Positions 3,021-27,541 of a stretch of 28,589 nt of DNA are shown one piece after another. The position numbers and the translations under genes were made by a program. Under the pieces are notes generated by a model. That model was not told the origin of the DNA, searched no databases, and worked only from the letters and a program-made list of their open reading frames with translations. The stretch is from a virus. Position 1 is the stretch's first letter; each line of letters opens with the position of its first letter. The stretch covers positions 1-28,589 of the IMG/VR virus record IMGVR_UViG_3300031621_000022, one strand, 5' to 3'.

Positions 3021-3032
3021 AAAGTAAACAAT

Positions 3033-3054
3033 TATTTAATTATATTTTATTATG
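3033..3054 (+). promoter_or_regulatory. A/T-only leader directly before the scaffold-like gene (copy 1)
   Basis: The bases running into the ATG at 3052 form a pure A/T leader that matches the leader of the gene at 5818 in 20 of 22 positions (ATG included). No Shine-Dalgarno sequence is present. It may be a translation-initiation leader or part of a late promoter; the sequence does not decide between these. Confidence 0.4.
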
Positions 3055-4239
3055 TCAGAAGAAACAAAAACAAATGAACCTGTTAAACAGGAAGGTGAGT
3101 TTAAAGTTAAAAAGAAAACTCCTAAAAAATTAACAACACCTAGTGACGAACCGGTAAGAGTCAACATCAAAGAACCTTTGATTGAATTACCACCAGAAGT
3201 TACAAAAGTGGTAATACCAAATGAAGATGCCATTCAAATCGGAGAAACAAAGGAAGTATCTGTGGAAGAACCATCCGGAGATAGCCCAACGATGGGAGAA
3301 CCTATACAAGAGTCCAACACGGATGTTGAAGGGTTTTCTGCAATCAAAGAAGTAACAGAAACTGAAAAAGTTGAAGCTCAGGTAGAAAAAGCAATACAAG
3401 ACGAAAGAATTCTTGGTAAAGCTTTACCTGAAAATATTGAAAAGCTAGTTTCTTTTATGGAAGACACAGGCGGGACAATAGAGGACTATACCAGACTTAA
3501 TGCTGACTACTCTCAAGTGGATGATGTTACATTATTAAAAGAATATTATAAAAAAGAAAAGCCTTATTTAGAAGGCGAAGACATTGATATGTTATTAGAA
3601 GACTTTATCATTGATGAAGATATCGACGAAGATAGAGATGCGCGCAAGAAAAAAATTGCGTTTAAAGAAGAAGTTGCAAAAGCCAAAAGCTATTTAGAGG
3701 AAACAAAGAGTAAGTATTACGATGAGATCAAGTTGAGACCAGGCGTTACTCAAGACCAACAAAAAGCCACGGACTTTTTTAACCGATATAATAAGCAGCA
3801 AGAGCAAGCTGAGCAACAGCATGCACGATTCAAAGAAAGTACCAAAGAACATTTTAACGACAATTTCGAAGGTTTCGATATTAAGGTTGGTGAAAAAAGC
3901 TATAAGTACAATATTCAGAATCGTGATAAAGTTGCAGAAAGCCAATCGAATATTAACAACCTTGTCGGGAAGTTCCTAGACTCAGATGGTAATGTTAAAG
4001 ACACAAAAGGTTATCACAAAGCTATGTACGCTGCTGACAATGTAGATAAGATTGCAGCTCATTTTTATGAGCAAGGAAAAGCGGATGCCGTAAAAGAAGT
4101 TGTAAACAGTTCAAAAAATTTAAGTAGTACCAAAGCTAGGTCTACTCAAGGAGAAGTGTTTTTAAACGGATTTAAGGTTAAAGCTATTTCAGGCGCTGAT
4201 TCTACAAAACTAAAAATTAAAACAAAAAAATTTAACTAA
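3052..4239 (+). CDS. Acidic protein between portal and capsid genes, probable scaffold
   Basis: A 395-residue hydrophilic protein that I do not recognise by sequence family. It sits between portal and major capsid genes, the standard place for an assembly scaffold. The first ~110 residues are rich in Lys, Pro, Glu and Thr and look disordered. The middle (about 110-290) is highly charged and helix-prone with acidic stretches (FIIDEDIDEDRD). The last ~20 residues are basic (KLKIKTKKFN at the end), recalling the basic C-terminal helix by which P22-like scaffolds bind coat protein. No protease motif is visible, and no separate prohead protease gene lies nearby, so scaffold removal without cleavage would be expected. 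Alternative: a minor head protein. Scaffold function is inferred from position and composition. Confidence 0.55.
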   Translation: MSEETKTNEPVKQEGEFKVKKKTPKKLTTPSDEPVRVNIKEPLIELPPEVTKVVIPNEDAIQIGETKEVSVEEPSGDSPTMGEPIQESNTDVEGFSAIKEVTETEKVEAQVEKAIQDERILGKALPENIEKLVSFMEDTGGTIEDYTRLNADYSQVDDVTLLKEYYKKEKPYLEGEDIDMLLEDFIIDEDIDEDRDARKKKIAFKEEVAKAKSYLEETKSKYYDEIKLRPGVTQDQQKATDFFNRYNKQQEQAEQQHARFKESTKEHFNDNFEGFDIKVGEKSYKYNIQNRDKVAESQSNINNLVGKFLDSDGNVKDTKGYHKAMYAADNVDKIAAHFYEQGKADAVKEVVNSSKNLSSTKARSTQGEVFLNGFKVKAISGADSTKLKIKTKKFN

Positions 4240-4253
4240 AAAAACAAAAAATT

Positions 4254-5732
4254 ATGGCTTTAAGTCCTCAATTTGGTAGTTTAATCCCTTCTTCACAGCA
4301 GGAGATTTTAAACAGTAACTACCTACAATTTAACGGTGGTGCTGCAGCGGGTGATACAAACACTTTTGCTCAACAATACTTACCAGAAATTTATGAACAA
4401 GAAGTAGAGCGTTACGGAAACCGTACGTTATCTGGATTCTTAAGAATGGTTGGCGCTGAAATGCCAATGACAAGTGATCAAGTAATTTGGTCAGAACAAA
4501 ATAGATTACACATTTCCTATGACAATTGTATCCAAGGTGTTGCAGGCGGGATAGCCGCTGGAGTAATTAGAGTAGCTCCAATTGCTGGATCCCCTGCTGT
4601 GCAAAATGTTATATCTGTAAATGACACTGTTGTTATTTTAGACACTGTTACAGGTGCAGAAACAAAAGGTATTGTTACGGTTTCTACTCAAAATGCAGCT
4701 GCAGTTGATGGTGACATTACTGTTGTAACATTTGACAATCTTGGATTTGCCGGTTACACAAGTGGTTCTGTAAAAGTATTTGTGTATGGTTCTTCTTATT
4801 CAAAAGGAACTAGTATGGTTAACGGTGGTACAGTAGCCGCTGGAACTCAGCCTAGAATTTCTGTTGAGCCACAACTTACTCAATATTCTAATTCACCAAT
4901 TATATTAAGAAGCCAGTACGTAGTATCTGGATCTGATATGGCACAAATTGGATGGGTTGAAGTTGCAACTGAAGATGGAACATCTGGATATTTATGGTAT
5001 TTAAAAGCTGAATCTGAAACTCGTTTACGTTTTGAAGATTACTTAGAAATGTCAATGATTGAAAGTGAATACAATCAAATTGCTCCTGGCGTAGGAGTTG
5101 GTTCTAGTCTTATTCCAGGATCTGAAGGTTTATTTTCTGCTATTCAATCTCGTGGAAATGTAGAAGTAGGATTTACTGCTGCCGCTGGACTTGACGAATT
5201 TGATGCTATCCTTAAAAATTTAGATACTCAAGGAGCAATTGAAGAAAACATGTTATTTTTACAAAGACAAACATCTCTTGATTTTGACGATATGTTAGCT
5301 TCTATTTCTGGTGGATTCGCTGGAGGTACTGCTTTTGGATTATTTGAAAATTCTGAAGAAATGGCTTTAAACTTAGGATTTAGCGGATTCCGTAGAGGGT
5401 CTTACGATTTCTATAAGACTGATTGGAAATACTTAAATGACGCTTCTACTCGTGGAGGAATCAACGGTATTAATTCAGTTGAAGGTGTATTAGTACCAGC
5501 TGGAACTTCTACAGTTTACGATCAGATCTTAGGAACTAATATCCGTCGACCATTCTTACACGTACGTTACAGAGCTTCACAATCTGATGACAGACGTATG
5601 AAGTCTTGGTTAACTGGTTCTGCTGGTGGTGCATTTACTTCAACTCTTGATGCTATGGAAGTAAACTTCCTATCTGAAAGATGTTTAGTAACTCAAGCTG
5701 CTAACAACTTTGTATTATTTAAAGGAATCTAA
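4254..5732 (+). CDS. Major capsid protein
   Basis: A 492-residue protein following the scaffold-like gene after a 14-nt A-rich gap with no Shine-Dalgarno site. It is the expected coat protein: placement, size, and a sequence resembling major capsid proteins of Bacteroidota podoviruses, including an SDMAQIGWVEVATEDG stretch followed by RFEDYLEMSMIESE. These are presumed HK97-fold proteins. An insertion-like, Ala/Gly/Val-rich beta segment at about residues 85-185 may be a surface domain. The second half is Gly- and Phe-rich (FLKN, GGFAGG, GFSGFRRGS). Its codons look more uniform than those of its neighbours, as is common for the most abundant virion protein, but I did not compute this. A terminator-like hairpin follows within 25 nt of the stop, suggesting that many transcripts end after this gene. 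Confidence 0.85.
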   Translation: MALSPQFGSLIPSSQQEILNSNYLQFNGGAAAGDTNTFAQQYLPEIYEQEVERYGNRTLSGFLRMVGAEMPMTSDQVIWSEQNRLHISYDNCIQGVAGGIAAGVIRVAPIAGSPAVQNVISVNDTVVILDTVTGAETKGIVTVSTQNAAAVDGDITVVTFDNLGFAGYTSGSVKVFVYGSSYSKGTSMVNGGTVAAGTQPRISVEPQLTQYSNSPIILRSQYVVSGSDMAQIGWVEVATEDGTSGYLWYLKAESETRLRFEDYLEMSMIESEYNQIAPGVGVGSSLIPGSEGLFSAIQSRGNVEVGFTAAAGLDEFDAILKNLDTQGAIEENMLFLQRQTSLDFDDMLASISGGFAGGTAFGLFENSEEMALNLGFSGFRRGSYDFYKTDWKYLNDASTRGGINGINSVEGVLVPAGTSTVYDQILGTNIRRPFLHVRYRASQSDDRRMKSWLTGSAGGAFTSTLDAMEVNFLSERCLVTQAANNFVLFKGI

Positions 5733-5755
5733 TTGATTCAACATTAATGTAATTC

Positions 5756-5796
5756 TTACCCTTGTTGTACTGACAGGGGTAATTATTACTTTTATA
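5756..5796 (+). terminator. Probable intrinsic terminator after the capsid gene
   Basis: Arms TTACCCTTGT (5756-5765) and ACAGGGGTAA (5773-5782) pair over 10 positions, one of them a G-U wobble, around a 7-nt loop. A T-rich run (TTATTACTTTTAT) follows. This is the layout of a Rho-independent terminator and lies 24 nt after the capsid stop codon. It could be partial, setting a high capsid-to-downstream ratio. Confidence 0.65.
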
Positions 5797-5798
5797 AC

Positions 5799-5820
5799 TA
5801 TTTAATTTTATTATATTATG
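5799..5820 (+). promoter_or_regulatory. A/T-only leader before the 274-aa gene (copy 2)
   Basis: This leader runs directly into the ATG at 5818 and matches the one at 3033-3054 at 20 of 22 positions. It sits just after the terminator-like hairpin, where either a new promoter or a strong translation leader would be useful. No Shine-Dalgarno site is present. Confidence 0.4.
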
Positions 5821-6642
5821 GCTAAACAAGCTAAAGCACAACAAGTTGAGGTTGCACCTCAAGAAGAAGTGGTAACAAAAGTTGCTACTCCAGTAAAACC
5901 CGCAAAACCAAAGTGGGAAATTAAAGATAGAGTTTACTATTTAACAGGTAGTAAAAACCCTTTAACATTGACAATTCCTGGTAAACATACAAGGAAACAT
6001 GCGTTGTTATACTTTGATTTAAAAACTGGAAAACAAAGAGAAATAAGATATGCTACTAATCAAGATTCGCCTCTTGTTGATGAGCAAAAAGGCGAGGTTA
6101 CAATGGGGCATATTAGGTTTCAAAAAGGATCTTTAACTGTAAAGAAAGAACAACAAAATTTACAAAAACTGCTATCAATATATCATCCTTTAAAGGGTAA
6201 ATTATATGACGAGTTTAGTGCTAAAGAAGAAGCTGTGGATCAATTACAGATATTAGACCTTCAAATAGACGCTATGAACGCAGCTAGAAGTATAGATGTA
6301 GATCAAGCAGAGGCTATACTAAGAGTTGAAATAGGTTCTAAAGTAAATGAAATGAGTTCTAAAGAACTTAAAAGAGACTTACTATTGTTTGCTAGAAGCA
6401 ATCCTGCATTGTTTATTAACTTAGCTAATGATGAAAATGTTCAATTAAGAAACTTTGCTATTAGAGCGCAAGAAGTTGGTATTATAAGCCTATCACAAGA
6501 TCAACGTACGTTTATGTGGGTATCAACTGGTAGAAAATTAATGAACGTTCCTTTTGACGAAAACCCTTACTCAGCATTTGCAGCTTTCTTAAAAACAGAT
6601 GAAGGAGTAGAAATCTATAAGTCTATAGATAAAAAACTATAA
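5818..6642 (+). CDS. Conserved head-associated phage protein, function unknown
   Basis: A 274-residue protein with a Lys/Ala/Gln/Pro-rich N-terminal ~32 residues (probably disordered), then a compact globular part. The globular part opens with beta-type segments (VYYLTGSKNPLTLTIPGK, GKQREIRY) and continues as helices. The end, NVPFDENPYSAFAAFLKTDEG, resembles the C-terminus of a structural protein I associate with marine tailed phages, but I cannot name a family. It lies between capsid and connector genes and is bracketed by two hairpins (5756-5782 and 6662-6683), so it may be transcribed or dosed separately. A role at the head surface or head-tail joint is inferred from location only. No enzymatic motif is visible. 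Confidence 0.6.
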   Translation: MAKQAKAQQVEVAPQEEVVTKVATPVKPAKPKWEIKDRVYYLTGSKNPLTLTIPGKHTRKHALLYFDLKTGKQREIRYATNQDSPLVDEQKGEVTMGHIRFQKGSLTVKKEQQNLQKLLSIYHPLKGKLYDEFSAKEEAVDQLQILDLQIDAMNAARSIDVDQAEAILRVEIGSKVNEMSSKELKRDLLLFARSNPALFINLANDENVQLRNFAIRAQEVGIISLSQDQRTFMWVSTGRKLMNVPFDENPYSAFAAFLKTDEGVEIYKSIDKKL

Positions 6643-6661
6643 AAACAAGTAATATTAATAC

Positions 6662-6683
6662 AGGGCTCGTTTACTCGGGCCCT
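6662..6683 (+). terminator. Strong hairpin after the 274-aa gene, possible terminator or processing site
   Basis: AGGGCTCG (6662-6669) pairs fully with CGGGCCCT (6676-6683), with one G-T wobble, around a 6-nt loop. The stem extends outward for five more A/T pairs after one mismatch. It is one of the most GC-rich short stretches in the window and lies in an otherwise A/T-only gap. The downstream side lacks a clean T-run, so it may be an RNA processing or stability element rather than a simple terminator. Confidence 0.55.
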
Positions 6684-6703
6684 ATATTATAACACAATAA
6701 AAA

Positions 6704-7492
6704 ATGGCGGTAAATATAAATACAGTATATCAAACAGTCTTGTATATTATAAACAAAGAACAAAGAGGTTATATAACACCTGCTGAATTTAATAGCTTAG
6801 CAGATCAAGTGCAAGATGAGATATTTCAATCATATTTTCCAGACGGTAATCAATTAAATCGTCAAAATCAAAACAATACACAAAACGATACAGAGTTTTT
6901 TAATGTATTTAAAAATATTGACTATAGATTATATCCTTTTGAAAATGAAGTTAGTTTTGTTTATGACACGGCTAATTTTGTTTGGCAATACACTGACCCT
7001 AACGACGAAGGTTTAATTGGTCAAATATATTTAATAGGAGATATTATATCGCAGTACAATAGTGATAATTCTACTTCACAGCCTCCTTCCGTAAGTGATA
7101 CTAATCAAAATTCTATAACTCAATTGGCTAGTAAAAAAGATTATAATAAATTAATAAGATCAAAATTAACTGCACCCACAAGGCAATATCCTTTATGCTT
7201 TAAAACAAATGTATTAAATACACTAGCTTTATCAGTTAACCCTAACCCCGATACTTTATTAGTTAATTGTATATTTAAGCCTATCCCTCCAAGATGGGGG
7301 TTTTTTGTAGGAGCCTTAGGCCAATACTTAAATAGCGCTGCAAATTCAGTAGATTTTCAATTAGATATTTCTGAGCAAAATAATTTAGTAATAAATATTT
7401 TAAAATACTGTGGAATTATAATAAATGATCCTACAATTATACAAGCCGCAGCTCAAGAAGCTCAGCAGGCATCAATTAACGAAAAATCATAG
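6704..7492 (+). CDS. Probable head-tail connector / ring protein
   Basis: A 262-residue protein with a helical N-terminus (VYQTVLYIINKEQRGYITPA, then EFNSLADQVQDEIF) that resembles small neck proteins of Bacteroidota podoviruses as I remember them. A Gln/Asn-rich linker (about 46-62) and a beta-rich central part follow. The C-terminus is Gln/Ala-rich helix. It is the first gene after the head module and is followed 6 nt later by another connector-type gene, then by the stabilization protein, so a role in closing the portal vertex is likely. It ends in TAG with a TAA codon immediately after (tandem stops). Which ring it forms (gp4-like or other) cannot be decided here. Confidence 0.6.
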   Translation: MAVNINTVYQTVLYIINKEQRGYITPAEFNSLADQVQDEIFQSYFPDGNQLNRQNQNNTQNDTEFFNVFKNIDYRLYPFENEVSFVYDTANFVWQYTDPNDEGLIGQIYLIGDIISQYNSDNSTSQPPSVSDTNQNSITQLASKKDYNKLIRSKLTAPTRQYPLCFKTNVLNTLALSVNPNPDTLLVNCIFKPIPPRWGFFVGALGQYLNSAANSVDFQLDISEQNNLVINILKYCGIIINDPTIIQAAAQEAQQASINEKS

Positions 7493-7498
7493 TAACAG

Positions 7499-8725
7499 AT
7501 GGGTTTAATAACTGAAACAAATCAACAATATTACCAAGGAGCCCAAGGATTTTTATCTGCAACTGGAGCAATTAATGAAACATTTTCAACTACTTTTGAT
7601 ACGGACTTAATATTTGGTGATTGGAATCCAGCTAATGCTAATTATGCTTTAAACAACTTTAAAGTATATACAAGCGCAACTGGGTTGCCACAAACTTATG
7701 CAGAATACTTATTAGCTTATTCTGTTTCAAATAATATTATAAATATTGACGCCGCTTTAACAGCCGGAACTTTTGTTGTTGTGCAATTAAAAGTATTAAG
7801 CGGAGGTAAGTATGGCCAAACAGAAGCTGAAAAAGCTTACGGAGATACCGTGGAAGATAATTACGGAAGCTATGAATATATAAAATTAACAGATGCTATA
7901 GACAACTTTATGGTTGGCTATGTAGGTGATGGCAAACTAATACAAAACGCTAAAAAATCTGATGTATTGTTTTTTGCAAAAAGAAGTTTGCAAGAATTTA
8001 GTTATGACACTTTAAAAAGTATTCATTCTCAAGAGCTGAGTATACCAGCTAGCTTAAGCGTTATACTACCTCAAGACTATGTTAACTATGTAAGAGTATC
8101 TTGGATAGATCAATTGGGTGTAAAAAGAATTATATACCCAGCAAACAATTTAACTATAGCTCCTTTTGAAACACCTATTCAAGATCAAGTAGGCGAACCA
8201 ACTCAAGATAACTTTGGAGAGAATATAGAAGGAACTTCTCTTACGGTTGAAAGATGGAAAAGCGCTAATGACGGTTTAATAAACGGTCAGCTAATCAACA
8301 ATATAGATGAAGCCGTGGACTTTCAAAATGCTTATGGCTTTGAAGGTAGCTGGAATTGGGGAAGACAATATGGTTTAGACCCTCAAACATCTCAAATGAA
8401 CGGCTGGTTTAACATGGATGAAAGAGAAGGTAAAATGTCTTTTTCTAGCAATTTAGCCGGAAAGCTTATTGTGTTAGAATACATCTCTGACGGCTTGGGT
8501 TATGACTTGGATACTAAAGTACCTAAGTTAGCAGAAGATGCTTTATACGCGTCCATACTGCATTCTATAGTATCTACAAGGTCTGGGCAACAAGAATATT
8601 TAGTTCAAAGATTACAAAAAGACAGAAGAGCTAAATTAAGAAATACAAAAATAAGATTATCAAATATCAAGCTTGATGAAATTGTTCAAGTTATGAGAGG
8701 TAAATCTAAATGGATTAAACACTAA
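7499..8725 (+). CDS. Probable tail connector / tubular protein
   Basis: A 408-residue protein. The N-terminal ~105 residues are beta-rich and look like a short add-on domain. From about residue 120 the sequence (KLTDAIDNFMVGYVGDGKLI, FFAKRSLQEFSYDTLKSI, SLSVILPQDYVNYVRVSWID) is of the type found in neck/tail-tube A proteins of marine flavobacterial podoviruses. It sits between the first connector and the stabilization protein with 6-nt gaps on both sides, consistent with an adaptor ring joining portal to nozzle, like T7 gp11 or P22 gp4. No catalytic motif is visible. The C-terminus is basic and helical (RLQKDRRAKLRNTKIRL). Function is inferred from order and recalled sequence style. Confidence 0.62.
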   Translation: MGLITETNQQYYQGAQGFLSATGAINETFSTTFDTDLIFGDWNPANANYALNNFKVYTSATGLPQTYAEYLLAYSVSNNIINIDAALTAGTFVVVQLKVLSGGKYGQTEAEKAYGDTVEDNYGSYEYIKLTDAIDNFMVGYVGDGKLIQNAKKSDVLFFAKRSLQEFSYDTLKSIHSQELSIPASLSVILPQDYVNYVRVSWIDQLGVKRIIYPANNLTIAPFETPIQDQVGEPTQDNFGENIEGTSLTVERWKSANDGLINGQLINNIDEAVDFQNAYGFEGSWNWGRQYGLDPQTSQMNGWFNMDEREGKMSFSSNLAGKLIVLEYISDGLGYDLDTKVPKLAEDALYASILHSIVSTRSGQQEYLVQRLQKDRRAKLRNTKIRLSNIKLDEIVQVMRGKSKWIKH

Positions 8726-14092: not shown

Positions 14093-14125
14093 GTAATTTA
14101 AACTAAAATTAAGTAATAATTAATT

Positions 14126-16477: not shown

Positions 16478-17635
16478 ATGGAAAACAAAAATCTACAAAA
16501 CAATTTATTTTTAAAGCAATTTAATGAAAGCAATGCAATAGCTTACAATAAAAGCTTTATAGCTAATCCCAGTGACTACAATTTTCAATTGCTAGACAAC
16601 GCTTACAGAAATGCAGGTAAAGCATACGCTCAAATAAAAATTGCTATTGAAACAAACAAATGCGAGTCAGAGTATTGCGCCGCGGAACTAGCTAAAATAA
16701 AACAACTAGAAGAGGCTCCTAATAATTCTTTAGAATTTTTAACGTCTCTAATGGCAGAGCTTAGTATAACTGAAGAATCTAACTATGATCCCAATAATAG
16801 TTATAGTTTTACGGCAGCTAACAGTTTGATGAGCGGTAAGCCTGGGTTTTCTAAAACAGATGGATACAATGCTTATCTAGATCTGTTACCAGATGGTTCT
16901 CAGCAAATAGTTTTTACAGGACCCGCTTTTAAAACTAGAATAGAAGAGCCTGATACTTTTGAAATTTTAGAAGTTGATGACCCTTTAATTATAAATAATT
17001 CTTCATTAAGCGCTTTGCTAGATTCAGATACATCTCTTGTAGTTTCTACGCCAGATGTAAATGCTGGAATGCTATTGCTTTTACCTGAAACAGGTTTATT
17101 TGTGCAAGAAATGATTAATGAAAATAAAGAATTAAAAGCTAACGCTAAGATAAGCGAAGAGTTTGTAATGAAAAATGCAGACGGAAGTTTTGATTATGAA
17201 ATTGTAGATTTAGGAAACAATCAAGGCAGAAACGCACTTAAGTATGATTTAGAAAAAATTGACAAAAAGGTTACTCCATTTATAAACGCGGAGGTTGGTG
17301 GTTTAATGAGCTCTGAGCAAGACGTGATAGCTGCGTGGAATGTTTATATAGCTAAAGGCACAAGTGTTGAAGAAGACGATCAAATGGTCCAAGACATGGG
17401 AAGAGAGGTAAATTCAGGAAACGAATACTGGAGTTATGAATTAGATCTTCCACTACAGCAAGACAAAAAAGTTTTATTTGAAATAAAATACAAAGAATAC
17501 TTTATGAATAATTATTTAAAACAATTTACAACTAATCAAATGCCAACGGTTAAAGAAGATGCAGCGGTTTTTGATTTAGAAGAAGCTAAAAAAGCAAAGG
17601 CTCAAAAATTTTTAGATGATAACGACTTAAATTAA
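16478..17635 (+). CDS. Hypothetical protein of the ejection module
   Basis: A 385-residue protein I do not recognise. The N-terminal ~100 residues are helical and charged, with an isolated close Cys pair (CESEYC, about residues 63-68). The middle (about 100-210) is beta-like with acidic and Gly/Asn/Pro turns (SLMSGKPGFSKTDGYNAYLD). The C-terminal ~60 residues are helical and strongly charged, ending in an acidic, Lys-rich tail. There is no signal peptide, membrane segment or catalytic motif. It lies 6 nt after the gp14-like gene and 5 nt before the giant gene, so it is almost certainly co-expressed and probably a virion partner. A role as an internal virion protein or as a chaperone for the giant protein is possible but unproven. 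Confidence 0.5.
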   Translation: MENKNLQNNLFLKQFNESNAIAYNKSFIANPSDYNFQLLDNAYRNAGKAYAQIKIAIETNKCESEYCAAELAKIKQLEEAPNNSLEFLTSLMAELSITEESNYDPNNSYSFTAANSLMSGKPGFSKTDGYNAYLDLLPDGSQQIVFTGPAFKTRIEEPDTFEILEVDDPLIINNSSLSALLDSDTSLVVSTPDVNAGMLLLLPETGLFVQEMINENKELKANAKISEEFVMKNADGSFDYEIVDLGNNQGRNALKYDLEKIDKKVTPFINAEVGGLMSSEQDVIAAWNVYIAKGTSVEEDDQMVQDMGREVNSGNEYWSYELDLPLQQDKKVLFEIKYKEYFMNNYLKQFTTNQMPTVKEDAAVFDLEEAKKAKAQKFLDDNDLN

Positions 17636-17640
17636 ATTAA

Positions 17641-20600
17641 ATGAACGAATTACAAAAATTTACAGCTTCGCTTCAAGGTCATTGGAATGACAAAGAAATA
17701 AAAGAACTTGTTATACAATGGAAAATAGACAATCAATGGGAGCAAAACAAACCTCAACCAATGGGGCCGCAAGAAGCACCAAAGCCTGAGAAGTTAACAT
17801 TAGAAGATACTTATATAGAAGAAGAAGTTTTTGAAGAAGTAAAGACGGAGGGCGATGCAGCGGGTGCAGGTGTGGAGCTAAGACAAACACCAGCACCAGT
17901 AGATATTACGGACTTAGTATTGGAAAATGGTTCTTCGGATTTAAAGCCAAATAAATTACAAAGTATTACTGAAAATTATAGTATTGACGGCAAAAAAGTA
18001 ACTGCTGATGACTTTGATTTTTACACGGAATTTAATAAAAATTTAAATCCCCAAGGAGCTTTGCTGCCCACCGTAAAGGATAGAAGCATTATAACCGTAA
18101 ATCAAAATGGAAAAAAAACGTCTTATTCAGCTAAACAAATAAAAACTTTAATAGAAAATAATTCCCCTGGTTTTGAAGACGTATCTAGCGTTCAAGAATA
18201 TGTAGATAGATTTGGCGATAATGCAGAAATTGTTGATCAATACAAAGACACTTATAAAGAGCAGCTTATCAAATACCAGCAAGAAATCGATGTAAGTAAA
18301 GTAGAGCAGGATGAAATAAACGCTTTAATAAGCAACCCCGATTTATTTAAACCTTACGTTGTAGAAACTGAAATTGTATCTGGAGGCGGGGGTAGTTCTA
18401 TGACAGGCTACATGCCGTCTAGCACTTCTATAAAAAGCGAAACAATAAAACCCTATGAAAACCAGCTTAAAGAAGCAAAAGCAACTTTAGTTAAAAATAG
18501 AAAAGCTCAAAACAGCTCAGAGCCTATAACTCAGCAAGAAATTGAAGATCAAGCAAAAGCCATTATAGAATATCAAAAGCAAGATGCTATAAGGAATGAT
18601 AATGCGGCTAAGCTTTTAAAGGACGGTAAAATTACGGAAACTCAGCAAAGTGAATTCTTAGGTATTATAGGTAAAAAAGCAAAAGATTCAAGTTGGAATT
18701 TACAGCCGCAAGCTAATCTTGTTGAGAAAAAAACCGCTAAGCTAAAAAACGGAAGTACTATACAAAATATAAATTCATTTTCTAAATCACTAGAAGAAGA
18801 TAGATTAAAATTAAGTAATCTAAAATCAGCAATGATAAAAATCTCAGGGGGTGATATGAAAATGAGTTCCCTAGATAGTCCTGAAAGAATAAATGAATTT
18901 AATAAAGCTGTAACAGAATACAATTCTATAATTTCTAATTACGATAAAAAATCAAAGTTTTTAGAAAAACTTGGAAAAGATTATCAAGTTCAATACAATT
19001 CTTTAGAAGCGGAGCAGGGCAATCTTATAGGCATGGCCTTAGATTCTGATACTAGTAAGTATGCTTTAAATTCATTAAAGCGAATTTACGATAAAGAAGA
19101 AAAACTTGCCTTAAACTTGGCTTTAGGTACTTTTAACATAGCAGCACAGGCAGGTGTTTTAGTAGAGGACGTTATTAAGTTTTCATTTGGAAACAGCGTG
19201 TTATTAGGTACAAAAGATACTGACTTTAAAAATAAAAAGCTATTTGGATTAGCAGAACTAGGAGTAAAGTCACAGCAAGCTCAAGAGTATATAAGAAATA
19301 AGTATTATGAGCCAATAACTTTTGATAAGGCATTTAACAGTTTAAGTAATTTTGGAAATTATGCTCTTGAAAAAGCAGTTGAACAAGCACCCATATATGC
19401 CGCTATTGCGTCTGGAGGCCTTGGAATGTTTGCGGTTTCAGCAAGTAGCGGTGGTGATTACTCATCATCAAGAAGAATAGAATCTAAACAAATAGGAGGC
19501 AGGGCTTATAATCCTGATGACGTGCTTTTTAGATCATTAGGATATGCAGGATCCGAGTATGTTTTTGGAGCACTACCAACCAGTAGATTGTTTAAAAGTT
19601 TAAACAAAGGAGCGGGTGATGGCACAAGAAGAGAAATATTAGACGGCATGCAGCAGTGGTGGAGAAACACTAAAACTTATGCTCCTAGTAATTTTGGAAT
19701 TGCGTTCGTTGACAAAATAGGAGAAGGCATGACTCAAGTTAGTCAAAATCTATTTGATGACAGCAGCCAAAATATATTTAGAGATGTACCAGAAGCGGTA
19801 TTTGTTGGAGGAATGTTTTCATACTCAGCAGCTTCAGCGCCTGTTATAAAAGGAGCTGTTTTGGCTAATTTTTCAGATTTTAAAACATATGATACTTATA
19901 GAGGTAATCTAAAAATGATAAATTCACTAGAAAGTTCTTTAAAAAATCAATGGACAAACGCTGATTTAAAAGAAAATACTAGAAAGCAAATACAACAATT
20001 AAAAGATCAGAACTTAGAAATAATAGAAGTTCAAAATAGAAAAGTAAATAACAACTTAAGTAGAGAAGGTTTTGGGTATTTTCAAAACGGAATGGAAAGA
20101 CAGGAGCAACTTAGAGTGGAAGCTGAAGCTGTTTTGGCTAATGAGTCTTTAAGTAAAAAGCAAAAAGACCAACGAATAAAAGAATTAAGTAATGAGTTCC
20201 AAGCTTTAAAAAACGGCATAGATGATTACAAACAAGCTTTTGCTAAAACCTTTAAATTACAAACAGCTAAAGAACAAAATAGATTAAAAAAAGAAGCTAA
20301 AATAAGATTAGAAGTACAAGGTAAATCCAATCCGAGTATTCAAAACGTATTAGATGAAGCTGAAAAAATACATACAGAAGAAAAAATAAATAACAATATA
20401 TCTAAAGAAACTTCCTTTTTAGAAAGTTTAATTGGAGCAGGTGTTGATATTAAATACAAAGCTGCTCAAACCAATGCAGAAGCTATAAAAGCTTTTACAG
20501 ATCTTATAAACGCAAGAGTAGAAGATGCAAACAATAGCATTAACAGAGAGCAAGGCGATAAATATATAAAGCAATTTAAAGAAGGAATAAATTCAGGGGA

Positions 20601-23600
20601 AACAAATGGTGTTAATATTCCATCTACAACTAACGGCAAAAAAGTTTACGATTCTGTAGTGTCCGTTCAAAACTCTATAGCAAATGAAAGAAGCGAAACT
20701 GGATTTCATGAACTTGGTCATTCCATAGCTGCTGAGGCCTTATCTACTGATCCAAATGCTTTTAAAGAAGTAGCGAATTCTGTTTTGGAATTTTTGCAGC
20801 AAAACAATAAAGACGCTTACACAAGAGTTAAAGCCAGATCTAAGGGCCAAGGATTTGATGAAGTTATAACTTATTTTTTAGAAGAAGTAACAAGCGGAAA
20901 TGTTAATTTAGAAAAACAAAGAGATACTGGATTTTTAGGTGCTCTAGGACAAGCGTTTGGTATTGCAACCGGCAAAGCAGGTAAAGCTGATTTTGATTAT
21001 AACTTTAAAGGCGAAACAGATGTTATAGCTTTTATGACTCAGCTAGGTACTAAAATAAAAGATGGTACTTTAACAGTAGGAGATGTTAAAGATATACAAA
21101 AATCAGATACATTAAAAACAGAATCCGAGTCTGAAGTTGATCTCGATCAAGCTGATCAAGATTTATTTAAAGAATCTAGAGTTAAATTAAATGAGTTAGC
21201 TGTTAAATCTAAAAAAGAAGATTTATCAATTACTGAACAAAAAGATTTAATAACTGAGTACAAAAGACTAGCGTTGTCAGGACCTGGTTTAAACTTTCAA
21301 AGTTACAAGTCTAGACAAGCAGGTCAACAAGGATTAAAGTCTATAAATAAAAATGATGCAGAATCTTTTGTTATGCAATATTACCAAGGCATATTAGATC
21401 GATACACGCCAACAATTGATGGTAAAAATATTGCTTTTTCAACTTTAGTTATATCCAATATTAATCCAAAAAGAGCTTTGTTTTTTGAACAAGAAATAGG
21501 AGGTTCAGATGTTGAAACTAGAATATCAGACGAAAGGCAAAAAGAAATAGAAAGCATTGAAGACACATCAAGCGAAACAATTGCAGAAGTAAACACAGAT
21601 GTTAAGCTTGTTGACAATATTAAAGTTAACAAAAAACCTTTAAGCACTGAATTTAAAGATAAAGTTAGAAAATTTGTAACTGAACAATTAGGAAGTGTAG
21701 ATGTTAATAGCGAAAAATTTAGAAAACAAGTTTTTAAGCCATCTAAAGCTTTTGTAGATTTTATTGTTAAAGATTTAATTGGTAGCCCAAAAAAATTTAA
21801 ACAATTTATACTGGAAAATCCTACTTTTTACAAAGGATTAAACATAACTGAATTAATTGCAATTGATGAAGGTAGAGTAGGAATGAAGCCTCCTCAGCCT
21901 AGATTGTTTACAGAATTTAACAGAAGACTTACAAAGCAGGCTGATATTGAAAAGTTTATGATGCAAGGAAAAATTCCTTATCTTACTGTTACTCAACAAA
22001 AAAATGGTGCAGATCTTTATAACAGACTTACTCCGTTACAACCAGCATTAAATCAACACTTTTTTGGCAGTATTTCTGATAGCAGTAAAAGTAACAGAAA
22101 GCGTGCTGCGGCTAAAGTCATTGCCGCTAAATTTATAGCAGAAGCAGCACCAAGTACAGAGGTTTTTAAAGCTAAACCGGAAATTGTTAGAGCTAAAACT
22201 GCTGAAAAACTACAGGTATCACCTAATGCTAAGTTTAGTGAAAATAGAAAAAACGTATTTATTGAAACAGGGTTAGACAGTAAGTCTAGGCCAGATTTTG
22301 CAGAATATAGCTTTGGTTATACAAAAGTTCTTAATTCATTATTAAAAGGAACAGGCTTTAGCAGAATAGATATGAAAGATCCTGAAGGCCGAAAAAGGTT
22401 TTTAGATTTTGCAATTAGCAGCGGATTAACTAAAAAACTTCCACCTATGTTTTGGAGGAAGTTGGCTTTTACTACTGAGAATGCTCTTACTAAAGATACG
22501 CTTAAAGAATTAGAAGAAGCTGGAATTGAAACAAAACCTTTTACTGAAGACGGCGAACTAGGGGATCTTAGAGAATACACAGGTAACTTGCCATTTAAAA
22601 ATGTTATAGAAGCTAACGTATGGGTATCTGAGTCTATAAAAGCAGAGCAAAAACGCTTAAGGAAGCCTAAAAATGAAGGTGGTGAAAATTTAAGCAAAGC
22701 TGAAGCTAAATTAAAAGCTAGAAATCTTTTTGCTAAAGATAGTGATTTTCCAGCATTAAAAAACATGCTTACTTATGAAGGTGTATATTCACAAAAAGGT
22801 AATTTAGAAAATGAATTAAATAATCCCGAGTTTGTAAAAAGACAAGATGAATCCATAGATGAGCTAGGTAAGCTTTTTGAAATGTTTCAAAACGAAATAA
22901 TGAGAAACAAAAATGGCACTATGAATTTCGAAGGTGTTGCTTTTGTGGGAGCTTTATTGTCTTCTAGCTCTTCTGGACAAGGACATTTTTTAAGATCTTC
23001 AGCTCCTTTTAGATTTTATCAAAAAGGGTATATGAAAACTGGATCTAGTGGAAACACTTTAGAGCATACTTTACCTGCTACTATAGTTGGAAAATATTTA
23101 TTTATGCAAGCCCTAGAAGGTAATGTTGGAGAAAACTTTAAAAACATAAAAAACAATTATTTTCAAGGACCAATATCTAATAAAAATGATAAAAAGCTAA
23201 AAGGCCAAAAACTTAATGGAGAAACATTTGATTACAGAGAAAAAACTCCAGAAGGATGGAAAATAACAGATAACATTTGGGCTAGATATTTTAATATTAA
23301 TGTAGGCTTAAATGGCGGTGGTATAAATCCAAGTGATTTAAAATTGCCAAACGGCAAGTCTGTTTACGATGTGCATAATATAACTTCCACCGGCGTTAAG
23401 GTTGATGTTGAAATGAAACAATCTAGATCTAAAGCTAATGATTTAGACGTTGATTTAGTTCCTAATATTATAACTTATAGTGATCCAGTAACTACCCAGA
23501 CATTAATAAACGCTTTAGCTAAAACTGATAAAGCTTTAAACGTAGCAAGAAGCGTAAATGCTCCAGTTAAAAAAATTAGAGTATTTGATTTTGATGACAC

Positions 23601-26496
23601 TTTAGCAACGTCAAAAAGCATGGTTGTAGTTAATATGCCAAACGGGTCTAGCAAAAAAATTAACGCAACAGAATTTGCTAAACAAGCTGCAGACTTAGAA
23701 TTGCAAGGTGCTAAATTTGATTTTACTGAATTTAGTAAAGTTGTTGATGGCAAAAAAGGGCCTTTATTTAGTGTAGCACAAAAAATTGCAAGTGTTAGAG
23801 GAACGGAAGATGTATTTGTATTAACAGCTAGACCTCAAGAAGCCGCAGGTCCTATAAAAGCTTTTATGAAAGCAAATGGTATAGACATACCTTTAGCTAA
23901 TATAACTGGCTTAGGGGATGGCACAGCACAAGCTAAGGCTGGTTGGATAATGGGCAAAGCTGCAGATGGTTATAACGATTTTTACTTTGCAGATGATGCT
24001 GTTAAAAACGTTAAGGCTGTTAAGGATGTACTTAGCCAAATAGATGTTAAATCTAAAGTTCAATTAGCTAAATTCAGCAAAATGCAAACTTTTGATATCA
24101 TTGTAAATGATATGATTGAAGACTCTTCTGGAATAGCTACATATAAAGAATATTCTGCAGCTAGAGCTAAAACGGTTGGCGCCAACAAAGGAAAATTTAA
24201 TTTCTTTATTCCACCGTCTGCTGAAGATTTTACAGGATTATTGTATAAAATGCTAGGTAAAGGCAAAAAAGGTGATGCTCAAATGGCGTTTCTTAAAGAT
24301 AATTTACTTGATCCTTACGACAGAGCTGAGTCCGCTGTAACGCAAGCTAAAATAGCTGCGGCAAATGATTTTAAAGCTTTAAAAACGCAATTAAAAACTT
24401 TACCTACAAGCTTAAGCGTACCAACAGGGGTTGGAGGTTTTACTTATTCTCATGCGGTCCGTGTAGCTATTTGGTCAGCTCAAGGCATGGACATACCAGG
24501 CTTATCTAAAAGAGATATTAAAGATTTGAATGATTTTATTCAAAATGATCCTGAATTAAAAACTTTTGCTAACGAGTTAATAGTAATACAAAAAGGTAAA
24601 CCATATCCTAAGCCAGGTCAAAATTGGCTAGGTGGCAACATTACTAGTGATATTATAAATGATATTAATAAAGTTAATAGAGCTGAGTATCAGCAAGAAT
24701 GGAGAGAAAATGTAGATATTATATTTTCAAAAGACAACCTGAATAAAATGGAAGCTGCGTATGGAACTAAATGGCGTAAAGCTATAGAGGATTCTTTGCG
24801 TAGAATGAAATCTGGTAGCAATAGACCCCCTGGAGGCAATAGCGTAACAGATGGATTGCTTGACTGGTTAAACAATTCAGTTGGCGCCGTAATGTTCTTA
24901 AATACAAGATCTGCATTGCTTCAAACTATATCTGCGGTAAACTTTATAAACTGGGGTGATAATAACATAGTAAAAGCAGGATTAGCGTTTGCAAATCAAA
25001 AACAATTTTGGTCTGATTTTATGACGCTTATGAATTCTGACTACTTAGTAGAACGTAGAAACGGTCTTAAAATAAATGTAAGTGAATCTGAAATTGCAGA
25101 TGCTGTAAGAGATTCAGACAACAAGGTAAAAGCAGCTATAGCTTTTTTACTTAGCAAAGGATTTGTAATGACAAGGTTTGCAGATAGCTTTGCAATTGCA
25201 AGCGGAGGGTCTACTTTTTATAGAAACAGAGTTAAAGCTTTAGTGGGTAAAGGAATGGAACAAAAAGCCGCAGAAGCACAAGCATTTGAAGACTTTAGAC
25301 AAATAGCAGAAGAAAGTCAACAGTCAAGTAATCCAAATAGAATTAGCCAGCAACAAGCTTCTGGTGCAGGTCGTGTTATATTAGCTTGGGCAAATACGCC
25401 GATGCAATATGCTCGTATACAAAAAAGAGCTGCTCAAGATCTTATAAACGGCCGTGGCGATTGGAAAACCAATGTATCTAAAATAGTTTATTACGGCGCT
25501 GTACAAAATTTAATATTTAATGCATTACAACAAGCCGTATTTGCTTTAGCGTTTGGAGAAGACGAAGACGAAGAAGTAAAAGACGCTAAGAAAAACGAAA
25601 AAATTTCAAGAGTTGCAAATGGTATGATTGACTCTCAGCTTAAGGGCTTAGGCATAGGTGGAGCTGCTGTGGTTGCAGTAAAAAGTGCTTTAATGGAATT
25701 AGGTAAGCAACACGCTAAAGACCGCCCTAAATACGAAGAAGCTGTATTTGATTTGCTAGGCTTTTCACCACCTCTTGGGTCTAAGATTCAAAAAATATAT
25801 GGAGGACTTAGAAGCTTTAGCTGGAGCATGAAAGATATTAAAGATAAAGGTTTTAGTTTAGATAATCCAGCTTATTTAGCAGGTGCTCAAATAACAACAG
25901 GTCTTACTAATATTCCGCTAGACAGAGTTATTAAAAAAATTAATAGCATGCGAGGAATTGTAAGCGAACAATCTTCTCTTTGGCAAAAAGTTGCTTTAGG
26001 TCTTGGTTGGTCCACTTGGGATGTAGGTCTTGGTTATTACGGAGGGTTTGACGCGGCAAAAGTTTTAACGCCTGAAGAGGAAAAAGTTAAAGAAATTGAC
26101 GATATGAAAAAGTTAACTAAAACAAAAGAGCAAATTGATATGCTGCTTGATTTAGGGTTAACTAAAAAAGAAATAAAAGCTTTAGGCAAAGAGCAAGTTA
26201 GAGTTGAAAAAATTATAGAGCTGCAAAATGCAGAGGCTAAACCTAAAGAAGAGGTTAAAGTTAAAGAAGAAATAAAAGGAGAAACTAAACCAACACCAGA
26301 AGTAAAAGCAAAACCTAAAACCGAAAGCGTTGAAAGAAGGCTTAGAAGACAATTTGATTCTATTAAAGATGAAAACAAACCTGATCAAGTAAAAACATTA
26401 CTTAAATTTGGGTTAACTAAAAAACAAATAAGAGAGTTACAATACGAAAAAAATAGAGTAAACAAAATATTAGAACTAATGGAAAAAAATAAATAA
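17641..26496 (+). CDS. Giant multidomain (polyvalent) ejection protein with zincin and HAD domains
   Basis: A 2951-residue protein taking 31% of the window. In order: an acidic, disordered N-terminus (to ~120); helical Lys/Glu/Gln-rich region; hydrophobic patches at about 488-515, 580-603 and 719-744; coiled-coil-rich segment (~750-930); zincin motif HELGH (His1023, Glu1024, His1027) with a candidate third ligand at Glu1074 (FDEVITYF); a possible degenerate sigma-like stretch (~1230-1310); a region with TLEHTLPA (~1806-1813); and a complete HAD phosphatase set: DFDDT (Asp1983, Asp1985), Thr2062 in LTARP, Lys2099, and Asp2118-Asp2119. The C-terminal third has hydrophobic stretches at ~2414-2437 and ~2614-2639 and ends in a duplicated motif. 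Position after a gp14-like gene suggests a virion protein ejected with the DNA, like giant 'polyvalent' proteins of other phages. Enzyme activities are inferred from motifs. Confidence 0.72.
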   Translation: MNELQKFTASLQGHWNDKEIKELVIQWKIDNQWEQNKPQPMGPQEAPKPEKLTLEDTYIEEEVFEEVKTEGDAAGAGVELRQTPAPVDITDLVLENGSSDLKPNKLQSITENYSIDGKKVTADDFDFYTEFNKNLNPQGALLPTVKDRSIITVNQNGKKTSYSAKQIKTLIENNSPGFEDVSSVQEYVDRFGDNAEIVDQYKDTYKEQLIKYQQEIDVSKVEQDEINALISNPDLFKPYVVETEIVSGGGGSSMTGYMPSSTSIKSETIKPYENQLKEAKATLVKNRKAQNSSEPITQQEIEDQAKAIIEYQKQDAIRNDNAAKLLKDGKITETQQSEFLGIIGKKAKDSSWNLQPQANLVEKKTAKLKNGSTIQNINSFSKSLEEDRLKLSNLKSAMIKISGGDMKMSSLDSPERINEFNKAVTEYNSIISNYDKKSKFLEKLGKDYQVQYNSLEAEQGNLIGMALDSDTSKYALNSLKRIYDKEEKLALNLALGTFNIAAQAGVLVEDVIKFSFGNSVLLGTKDTDFKNKKLFGLAELGVKSQQAQEYIRNKYYEPITFDKAFNSLSNFGNYALEKAVEQAPIYAAIASGGLGMFAVSASSGGDYSSSRRIESKQIGGRAYNPDDVLFRSLGYAGSEYVFGALPTSRLFKSLNKGAGDGTRREILDGMQQWWRNTKTYAPSNFGIAFVDKIGEGMTQVSQNLFDDSSQNIFRDVPEAVFVGGMFSYSAASAPVIKGAVLANFSDFKTYDTYRGNLKMINSLESSLKNQWTNADLKENTRKQIQQLKDQNLEIIEVQNRKVNNNLSREGFGYFQNGMERQEQLRVEAEAVLANESLSKKQKDQRIKELSNEFQALKNGIDDYKQAFAKTFKLQTAKEQNRLKKEAKIRLEVQGKSNPSIQNVLDEAEKIHTEEKINNNISKETSFLESLIGAGVDIKYKAAQTNAEAIKAFTDLINARVEDANNSINREQGDKYIKQFKEGINSGETNGVNIPSTTNGKKVYDSVVSVQNSIANERSETGFHELGHSIAAEALSTDPNAFKEVANSVLEFLQQNNKDAYTRVKARSKGQGFDEVITYFLEEVTSGNVNLEKQRDTGFLGALGQAFGIATGKAGKADFDYNFKGETDVIAFMTQLGTKIKDGTLTVGDVKDIQKSDTLKTESESEVDLDQADQDLFKESRVKLNELAVKSKKEDLSITEQKDLITEYKRLALSGPGLNFQSYKSRQAGQQGLKSINKNDAESFVMQYYQGILDRYTPTIDGKNIAFSTLVISNINPKRALFFEQEIGGSDVETRISDERQKEIESIEDTSSETIAEVNTDVKLVDNIKVNKKPLSTEFKDKVRKFVTEQLGSVDVNSEKFRKQVFKPSKAFVDFIVKDLIGSPKKFKQFILENPTFYKGLNITELIAIDEGRVGMKPPQPRLFTEFNRRLTKQADIEKFMMQGKIPYLTVTQQKNGADLYNRLTPLQPALNQHFFGSISDSSKSNRKRAAAKVIAAKFIAEAAPSTEVFKAKPEIVRAKTAEKLQVSPNAKFSENRKNVFIETGLDSKSRPDFAEYSFGYTKVLNSLLKGTGFSRIDMKDPEGRKRFLDFAISSGLTKKLPPMFWRKLAFTTENALTKDTLKELEEAGIETKPFTEDGELGDLREYTGNLPFKNVIEANVWVSESIKAEQKRLRKPKNEGGENLSKAEAKLKARNLFAKDSDFPALKNMLTYEGVYSQKGNLENELNNPEFVKRQDESIDELGKLFEMFQNEIMRNKNGTMNFEGVAFVGALLSSSSSGQGHFLRSSAPFRFYQKGYMKTGSSGNTLEHTLPATIVGKYLFMQALEGNVGENFKNIKNNYFQGPISNKNDKKLKGQKLNGETFDYREKTPEGWKITDNIWARYFNINVGLNGGGINPSDLKLPNGKSVYDVHNITSTGVKVDVEMKQSRSKANDLDVDLVPNIITYSDPVTTQTLINALAKTDKALNVARSVNAPVKKIRVFDFDDTLATSKSMVVVNMPNGSSKKINATEFAKQAADLELQGAKFDFTEFSKVVDGKKGPLFSVAQKIASVRGTEDVFVLTARPQEAAGPIKAFMKANGIDIPLANITGLGDGTAQAKAGWIMGKAADGYNDFYFADDAVKNVKAVKDVLSQIDVKSKVQLAKFSKMQTFDIIVNDMIEDSSGIATYKEYSAARAKTVGANKGKFNFFIPPSAEDFTGLLYKMLGKGKKGDAQMAFLKDNLLDPYDRAESAVTQAKIAAANDFKALKTQLKTLPTSLSVPTGVGGFTYSHAVRVAIWSAQGMDIPGLSKRDIKDLNDFIQNDPELKTFANELIVIQKGKPYPKPGQNWLGGNITSDIINDINKVNRAEYQQEWRENVDIIFSKDNLNKMEAAYGTKWRKAIEDSLRRMKSGSNRPPGGNSVTDGLLDWLNNSVGAVMFLNTRSALLQTISAVNFINWGDNNIVKAGLAFANQKQFWSDFMTLMNSDYLVERRNGLKINVSESEIADAVRDSDNKVKAAIAFLLSKGFVMTRFADSFAIASGGSTFYRNRVKALVGKGMEQKAAEAQAFEDFRQIAEESQQSSNPNRISQQQASGAGRVILAWANTPMQYARIQKRAAQDLINGRGDWKTNVSKIVYYGAVQNLIFNALQQAVFALAFGEDEDEEVKDAKKNEKISRVANGMIDSQLKGLGIGGAAVVAVKSALMELGKQHAKDRPKYEEAVFDLLGFSPPLGSKIQKIYGGLRSFSWSMKDIKDKGFSLDNPAYLAGAQITTGLTNIPLDRVIKKINSMRGIVSEQSSLWQKVALGLGWSTWDVGLGYYGGFDAAKVLTPEEEKVKEIDDMKKLTKTKEQIDMLLDLGLTKKEIKALGKEQVRVEKIIELQNAEAKPKEEVKVKEEIKGETKPTPEVKAKPKTESVERRLRRQFDSIKDENKPDQVKTLLKFGLTKKQIRELQYEKNRVNKILELMEKNK
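26125..26223 (+). repeat. C-terminal motif of the giant protein, copy 1
   Basis: Residues 2829-2861 (core LLDLGLTKKEIKAL, then RVEKIIEL). It matches copy 2 at 17 of 33 aligned residues without gaps. The DNA shares an exact 15-nt run (GGGTTAACTAAAAAA) at 26155 and 26410, exactly 255 nt (85 codons) apart. Confidence 0.8.
26380..26478 (+). repeat. C-terminal motif of the giant protein, copy 2
   Basis: Residues 2914-2946 (core LLKFGLTKKQIREL, then RVNKILEL), six residues before the end of the protein. It is separated from copy 1 by a Lys/Glu/Pro-rich linker. The helix-turn-helix-like spacing suggests a small helical hairpin. Confidence 0.8.
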
Positions 26497-27163: not shown

Positions 27164-27541
27164 ATGAATAAGCAATCACCGTTTAAAAAAATGCAAATAA
27201 GAGGCACTACATCACAAAAAGAGTATGATGAAGATGTTGATAATTCCGGAGTGCCTAACGCGGGTTACAAATTGGATTCTACACCTTTAAATATTAAAGA
27301 AGCTGCTTACGAAAAACAAAATCGTAAAATGCGTAAAGAAAACCCCGGAATGGGTAAAAGACTTACGTCTGGAACAAGCCCTCGAAGAGTGTCATTTGCA
27401 TGCAGATTTGCAGGTATGGCCGGAGCAATGAAAGACGCCAAAGGAGAACCAACAAAAAAAGCTATGGCTTTAAAAAAATGGGGCTTTGGTAGCGTTGGCG
27501 CTGCTAAAAGCTTTTGTAGTAAAAATAAATCTAAAAAATAA
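27164..27541 (+). CDS. Small basic protein with Cys pair, conserved in marine phages
   Basis: A 125-residue basic protein. The start (MNKQSPFKKM) shares the SPF-x-K-K pattern with the 165-aa protein at 26498. Residues ~16-60 are low complexity and charged. The C-terminal ~57 residues (SGTSPRRVSFACRFAGM, then KKWGFGSVGAAKSFC and a Lys tail) are a compact domain that I recognise as recurring in marine phages, but I cannot name its family with certainty. It has Cys80 and Cys118, too few for a classical zinc finger unless it dimerises. DNA or RNA binding is suggested only by its charge. It starts one base after the holin-like gene. Confidence 0.6.
   Translation: MNKQSPFKKMQIRGTTSQKEYDEDVDNSGVPNAGYKLDSTPLNIKEAAYEKQNRKMRKENPGMGKRLTSGTSPRRVSFACRFAGMAGAMKDAKGEPTKKAMALKKWGFGSVGAAKSFCSKNKSKK

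Follow-up and report, generated by a model that had tools for sequence, protein, structure and literature searches.

A giant mosaic protein from a marine podovirus lineage combines a predicted zincin peptidase with a HAD phosphatase domain and is very probably a virion protein

The window, a 28.6-kb virus record analysed over its whole length, contains the end of a terminase gene followed by a portal gene, head and tail genes, a 385-aa gene, a 2951-aa gene, a few small genes and an amidase endolysin, Table 1. The giant gene is a single open frame with an ATG start and no internal stop, and it is the last gene of the syntenic virion block. The portal is 51% identical to that of a Manatee Spring podovirus, 43% to Maribacter phage Panino, 41% to the Flavobacterium elemo phages, 34% to Cellulophaga phi40:1 and 28% to phi18:3, and the gene order agrees with that of elemo, Panino, phi40:1 and phi18:3. 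Given this kinship and the matching gene order, the host is probably a member of the Bacteroidota. A scan of genome contigs adds weak support, because it returned metagenome bins only, several of them Bacteroidota.

The 385-aa gene occupies the position of phi40:1 gp100, a virion protein by MS/MS, and the two have no sequence match. Further upstream, a 1786-aa and a 563-aa gene (8732-15817) jointly match single genes of phi40:1, elemo and phi18:3, the N-terminal part of each resembling the former and the C-terminal part the latter, and the tail gene is therefore split in the window lineage; the Panino tail gene is likewise split. The product of the 563-aa gene contains a crass muzzle C-terminal domain. 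Just ahead of the endolysin lies a DUF6321 protein of unknown function (27164-27541), 74-97% identical in relatives.

Table 1. Position of the described features; coordinates refer to the window unless a related record is named.
Feature	Position	Strand	Basis
Portal (633-3020) and other virion genes	633..8725	+	Kinship with elemo, Panino, phi40:1, phi18:3
385-aa gene, directly upstream of the giant gene	16478..17635	+	Retained beside the giant gene in 10/10 relatives examined
Giant virion-type protein, putatively polyvalent (P0001)	17641..26496	+	ORF; 106 distinct family proteins of 1896-3697 aa
N-terminal ~100 aa	17641..17940	+	35-52% identity with close relatives; the following ~1700 aa may fail to align
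Helical virion module, residues 540-770	19258..19950	+	Homologous to phi18:3 gp123, phi40:1 gp101, elemo gp90 and Panino (iterated HMM)
Predicted zincin metallopeptidase domain, residues 913-1152 (H1023, E1024, H1027, E1074)	20377..21096	+	Invariant columns, shuffle control, AlphaFold2 model
Unrecognised module with near-invariant E1808-H1809, residues 1743-1922	22867..23406	+	Conserved columns, shuffle control
Predicted HAD phosphatase domain, residues 1973-2166 (D1983, D1985, T2062, K2099, D2118, D2119)	23557..24138	+	Motifs; phrog_415; TIGR01664
Conserved all-helical C-terminal core, about residues 2167-2820	24139..26100	+	Identity in close relatives; helical model
C-terminal tail, two related helical repeats (MLLDLGLTKKEIKAL, TLLKFGLTKKQIREL)	26080..26493	+	Sequence, alignment
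Nested P-loop kinase, in relatives	L022:12092-13498; L041:9956-11600; L043:9953-11600; L044		P-loop in HAD

Single-sequence searches of Pfam, PHROGs and the PDB with the giant protein gave nothing useful, neither Pfam nor PHROGs holds a family spanning all of it, and tblastn with the whole protein, the core and the HAD found no matches in 50,697 phage records. Relatives were instead collected by pattern. A scan with FDFDDTL gave the 55 HAD relatives used below; as this pattern is biased toward the HAD, a second scan used a pattern downstream of it, in the helical core, and uncovered HAD-less proteins of about 1900-2440 aa. Both scans pooled give a family of 106 distinct proteins of at least 1800 aa. 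The HAD is present in 95 and absent in 11 of them, and HExxH is found in 99. Ten proteins keep HExxH without a HAD, which makes the HAD dispensable. In four records (L093, L118, L127, L137) the conserved core or the protein end sits in a shorter frame (551-2070 aa), which reflects a split gene or else a frameshift in the assembly.

The preliminary description placed the gene where podoviruses encode ejected proteins, and this is supported by its place as the closing gene of the virion block and by the homology of residues 540-770 to virion proteins detected by mass spectrometry. A profile was grown from residues 520-770, with reversed decoys and the database size set to one million. It collected elemo gp90 and phi18:3 gp123 in round one, phi40:1 gp101 in round two and Panino in round three, and matched no decoy. 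gp101 and gp123 are both marked in their records as "annotation based on experimental MS/MS proteomics analysis", and because of this homology the giant protein is very probably a virion protein. The link is thus the sequence homology of one module, beyond a shared position. Since gp101 and gp123 have neither HExxH nor a HAD motif, virion membership is deduced through a module other than the putative enzymes. The zincin profile does match elemo gp90, annotated "structural protein", around its own HExxH.

HELGH is present at residues 1023-1027, as first described, and the suggested third ligand could be assigned. In a protein of this composition HExxH is expected by chance about 0.0025 times. 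In an alignment of 18 sequences, all but one just 13-18% identical to the window protein, only H1023, E1024, H1027 and E1074 are common to all. The same four alone are invariant in an alignment of 66 relatives, most of them with a zincin region sharing 10-30% identity with that of the window; here HExxH was the criterion for selecting rows and E1074 was not. As the only further invariant column, E1074 is taken as the third zinc ligand. When the downstream residues were shuffled and realigned, no fourth invariant column appeared in 15 trials. The ligand set is thus shown to be complete and strictly kept, while zinc binding and peptidase activity are predictions. Three relatives (L016, L039, L054) have EExFH instead of HExxH and resemble relatives with APMHELLH; theirs is possibly an inactivated or altered metal site.

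An AlphaFold2 model of the zincin region (pLDDT 84.9) places HExxH and the glutamate on separate helices after three strands. The elements follow in the order helix, strand, helices, two strands, HExxH helix and Glu helix (strands 24-30, 78-85 and 88-96, helices 108-122 and 160-172 of the model), in agreement with the polyvalent-zincin core described by Iyer et al. (PMC5512222). Foldseek found no significant match to this model in the PDB, and weak matches in a viral library, several metallopeptidases among them. In the HAD model, strands and helices alternate over residues 27-166, and Foldseek again gave no significant match, only weak HAD matches (LHPP, E=1.9). For this reason both folds are assigned from their motifs, from profile matches and from the predicted secondary structure.

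The HAD motif set reported at 1983-2119 is complete. D1983/D1985/T1987, T2062/R2064, K2099 and D2118/D2119 are all in place and invariant in the 55 relatives, as is N2123. DFDDT was also considered as the catalytic motif of a crassvirus-type RNA polymerase; this was rejected, as the remaining, likewise invariant HAD motifs occur in their proper order and no match to a polymerase chain was obtained. PHROGs family phrog_415, "polynucleotide kinase", matches 50 of 57 members, and TIGR01664, "DNA 3'-phosphatase", 18 of 41 (best member E=5.2e-5). The window protein scores 14.8 bits against TIGR01664, under the curated cut-off of 107.65; its other HAD family matches are also below their curated cut-offs, and generic HAD families match weakly too. 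The domain looks most like the polynucleotide 3'-phosphatases, so that the proposed phosphatase or nucleotidase keeps its HAD motifs and is narrowed, by the recurring profile matches, from a generic nucleotidase to this branch.

In four relatives (L022, L041, L043, L044) a P-loop domain that matches polynucleotide kinase is inserted in the HAD between motif I and motif II. In the three of these relatives that the Pfam scan covered, the P-loop domain appears to match AAA_33 and zeta toxin as well. The stand-alone HAD protein of elemo does not align with the HAD of the giant protein beyond the motif. A T4 Rnl1-type RNA ligase was found in none of 18 related records, in a search whose control was likewise silent, and no RNA_ligase match in related records is above the cut-off, which weakens an RNA-repair reading. 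The single weak, sub-threshold RNA_ligase match is in a relative without the HAD (L209, G016:C1:63313-63669).

Ahead of the HAD, the strongest columns in 70 relatives are E1808 (99%) and H1809 (97%). Y1840, Q1842, R1882, D1850 and R1785 are conserved at 73-81%, and P1812 is mostly kept too; a shuffle control gave occasional G, P or N columns only. The module has no family or database match; the Glu-His pair bears a resemblance to HNH nucleases, and a reading as such a nuclease was set aside. The C-terminal ~1000 aa, i.e. the HAD and the core, are 67-90% identical among close relatives, the core model is helical (pLDDT 74), and the tail repeat is present as a single copy in some relatives. The preliminary list of parts was right about the zincin and the HAD. 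It overlooked the virion module, the Glu-His module and how the conserved core contrasts with the hypervariable front. Its "membrane-active segments" are marginal, as no 19-residue window exceeds 1.47 on the Kyte-Doolittle scale. The highest hydrophobic windows (489-522, 583-603, 2662-2688) are all below 1.5, one of the most hydrophobic stretches being part of the virion module, and membrane insertion is weakly supported.

Comparison with close relatives shows how unevenly the protein changes. In the comparison with L010, identity is 69-97% for most of the neighbour genes that can be aligned, the lowest value (49%) belonging to the fast-evolving gene at 8732-14092; within the giant protein, residues 1808-2951 are 80% identical, residues 1-101 are 52% identical and residues 102-1807 cannot be aligned. 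L015, with more distant neighbour genes, has residues 223-1154 in common with the window at 39%. Among 22 pairs with a core identity of at least 0.8, 55% have a zincin identity below 0.25. Modules are thus exchanged or replaced, with the ligand sets retained. The predicted protease and phosphatase sites are almost unchanged in about 100 relatives, and most of the remaining front two thirds changes fast.

The explanation we favour, and hold with roughly even confidence, is that of a polyvalent podovirus cargo delivered with the genome, with a self-cutting zincin, a HAD that heals 3' ends and an exchanged front. The giant protein would be packed in the virion of a marine Bacteroidota podovirus and enter the cell together with the genome; packaging and passage through the entry channel would presumably fall to the helical core and the 540-770 module. 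After or during delivery, the putative zincin would most likely cut its own polypeptide to free parts, possibly host proteins too. The HAD would most likely strip 3'-phosphates from nucleic-acid ends and so protect or heal nucleic acid at the start of infection, a role suggested by the profile similarity and by the nested kinase of the four relatives. The front two thirds would be swapped from phage to phage, which is what a conflict of these parts with varying hosts would lead one to expect.

The zincin could instead be a maturation protease that, within the newly formed particle and ahead of its release, cleaves the giant protein or further proteins of the virion, with nothing enzymatic directed at the host. 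In-head autoprocessing is among the options named for phage polyvalent zincins (PMC5512222), and the retention of HExxH in 99 of 106 proteins, including the ten without a HAD, would suit a core function. However, the EExFH form and the few other relatives lacking the motif imply that the activity is not strictly needed, and so rapid a change of the zincin region would be unusual for a pure assembly enzyme; we consider this unlikely. That the protein is mainly a structural or channel-forming ejection protein, its enzyme domains being passengers of little effect, would fit the homologues gp101 and gp123, which have neither motif, and the 11 family members without a HAD. It is hard to reconcile with zincin ligands that stay invariant amid ~17% identity and with the invariant HAD motifs, both pointing to selection on activity, and is in our view very unlikely.

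For the HAD, the other option is a nucleotidase or a signalling-nucleotide phosphatase, acting on host metabolism or on nucleotide defence signals rather than on nucleic-acid ends. Intact motifs I-IV, the weak matches to generic HAD families and the RNA ligases staying under the cut-off would all be compatible with it. Yet the commonest matches are to phrog_415 and TIGR01664, and four relatives have a polynucleotide-kinase-like P-loop inserted in this fold, so this option is possible but leans toward the unlikely. End healing by a delivered HAD can also be extended to a bolder, distinctly doubtful proposal, that of an abundant marine Bacteroidota phage lineage that injects a self-cleaving carrier of fixed core, replaced zincins, an end-healing HAD and a Glu-His enzyme. 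On such a carrier, the HAD, kinase-nested in some relatives, would be a virion-delivered end-healing enzyme reversing host nuclease damage at entry, distant zincin types would keep taking the place of the protease, and the Glu-His module would represent one more enzyme.

Relatives of the core are encoded in at least 554 IMG/VR stretches. In a common phage group the protein is thus the foremost candidate for delivery, and Pfam and PHROGs offer no annotation for it. One conserved carrier with approximately 100 zincins whose motifs are complete amounts to a natural experiment. If the HAD acts on 3'-phosphate ends, the phage would bring nucleic-acid repair along with its genome and not make it after entry.

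The nearest counterparts with proteomic data, phi40:1 gp101 (Pervagoviridae, 1691 aa) and phi18:3 gp123 (Pachyviridae, 1935 aa), share the helical module of ~230 aa and the position as last virion gene, and were themselves detected in virions by MS/MS; unlike the window protein, they have no HExxH or HAD motif and no recognisable C-terminal core. Flavobacterium phage elemo gp90 (QLF85284, 3694 aa, annotated structural protein) is found at the same position, has a homologous region (509-886, 25% identity) and, around HExxH at 1543, a zincin match, but the HAD was not found in it and the C-terminal core is not recognisable. For a crassvirus, too, giant proteins stored in the virion are reported, together with a model in which they are ejected through the tail (PMC10172136). 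By description, the PhiCrAss001 cargo (gp45-gp50) is alike in consisting of giant virion-stored proteins ejected through a muzzle-bearing tail, and the window encodes the muzzle domain; no sequence relation was found between the giant protein and solved phage RNA polymerase or cargo chains. With the HAD of polynucleotide kinase-phosphatases (phrog_415, TIGR01664) the domain shares the HAD motifs, the best recurring matches and, in four relatives, the nested kinase. It differs in its weak scores, in the lack of a kinase in the window protein and in its setting within a protein of virion type.

Polyvalent proteins of phages and conjugative elements, including a type with a zincin-like MPTase, were described by Iyer et al. 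(2017, PMC5512222), who propose that zincins process them. No Pfam polyvalent-protein (LPD) model matches the giant protein. Like polyvalent proteins, it is a very large multidomain protein encoded beside virion genes, with mosaic modules and at least two predicted effector domains, and in its zincin a three-stranded sheet precedes the HEXXH and a later helix that carries the glutamate. The most fitting reading is that of an injected, mosaic protein of the polyvalent kind; the theme is known, and the lineage and the combination of domains are new. Zincin-bearing polyvalent virion proteins are known, whereas the text of PMC5512222 mentions no HAD or phosphatase domain, and hence not this combination; the window protein unites the zincin with the HAD and the Glu-His module, all on a helical core that is strongly conserved.
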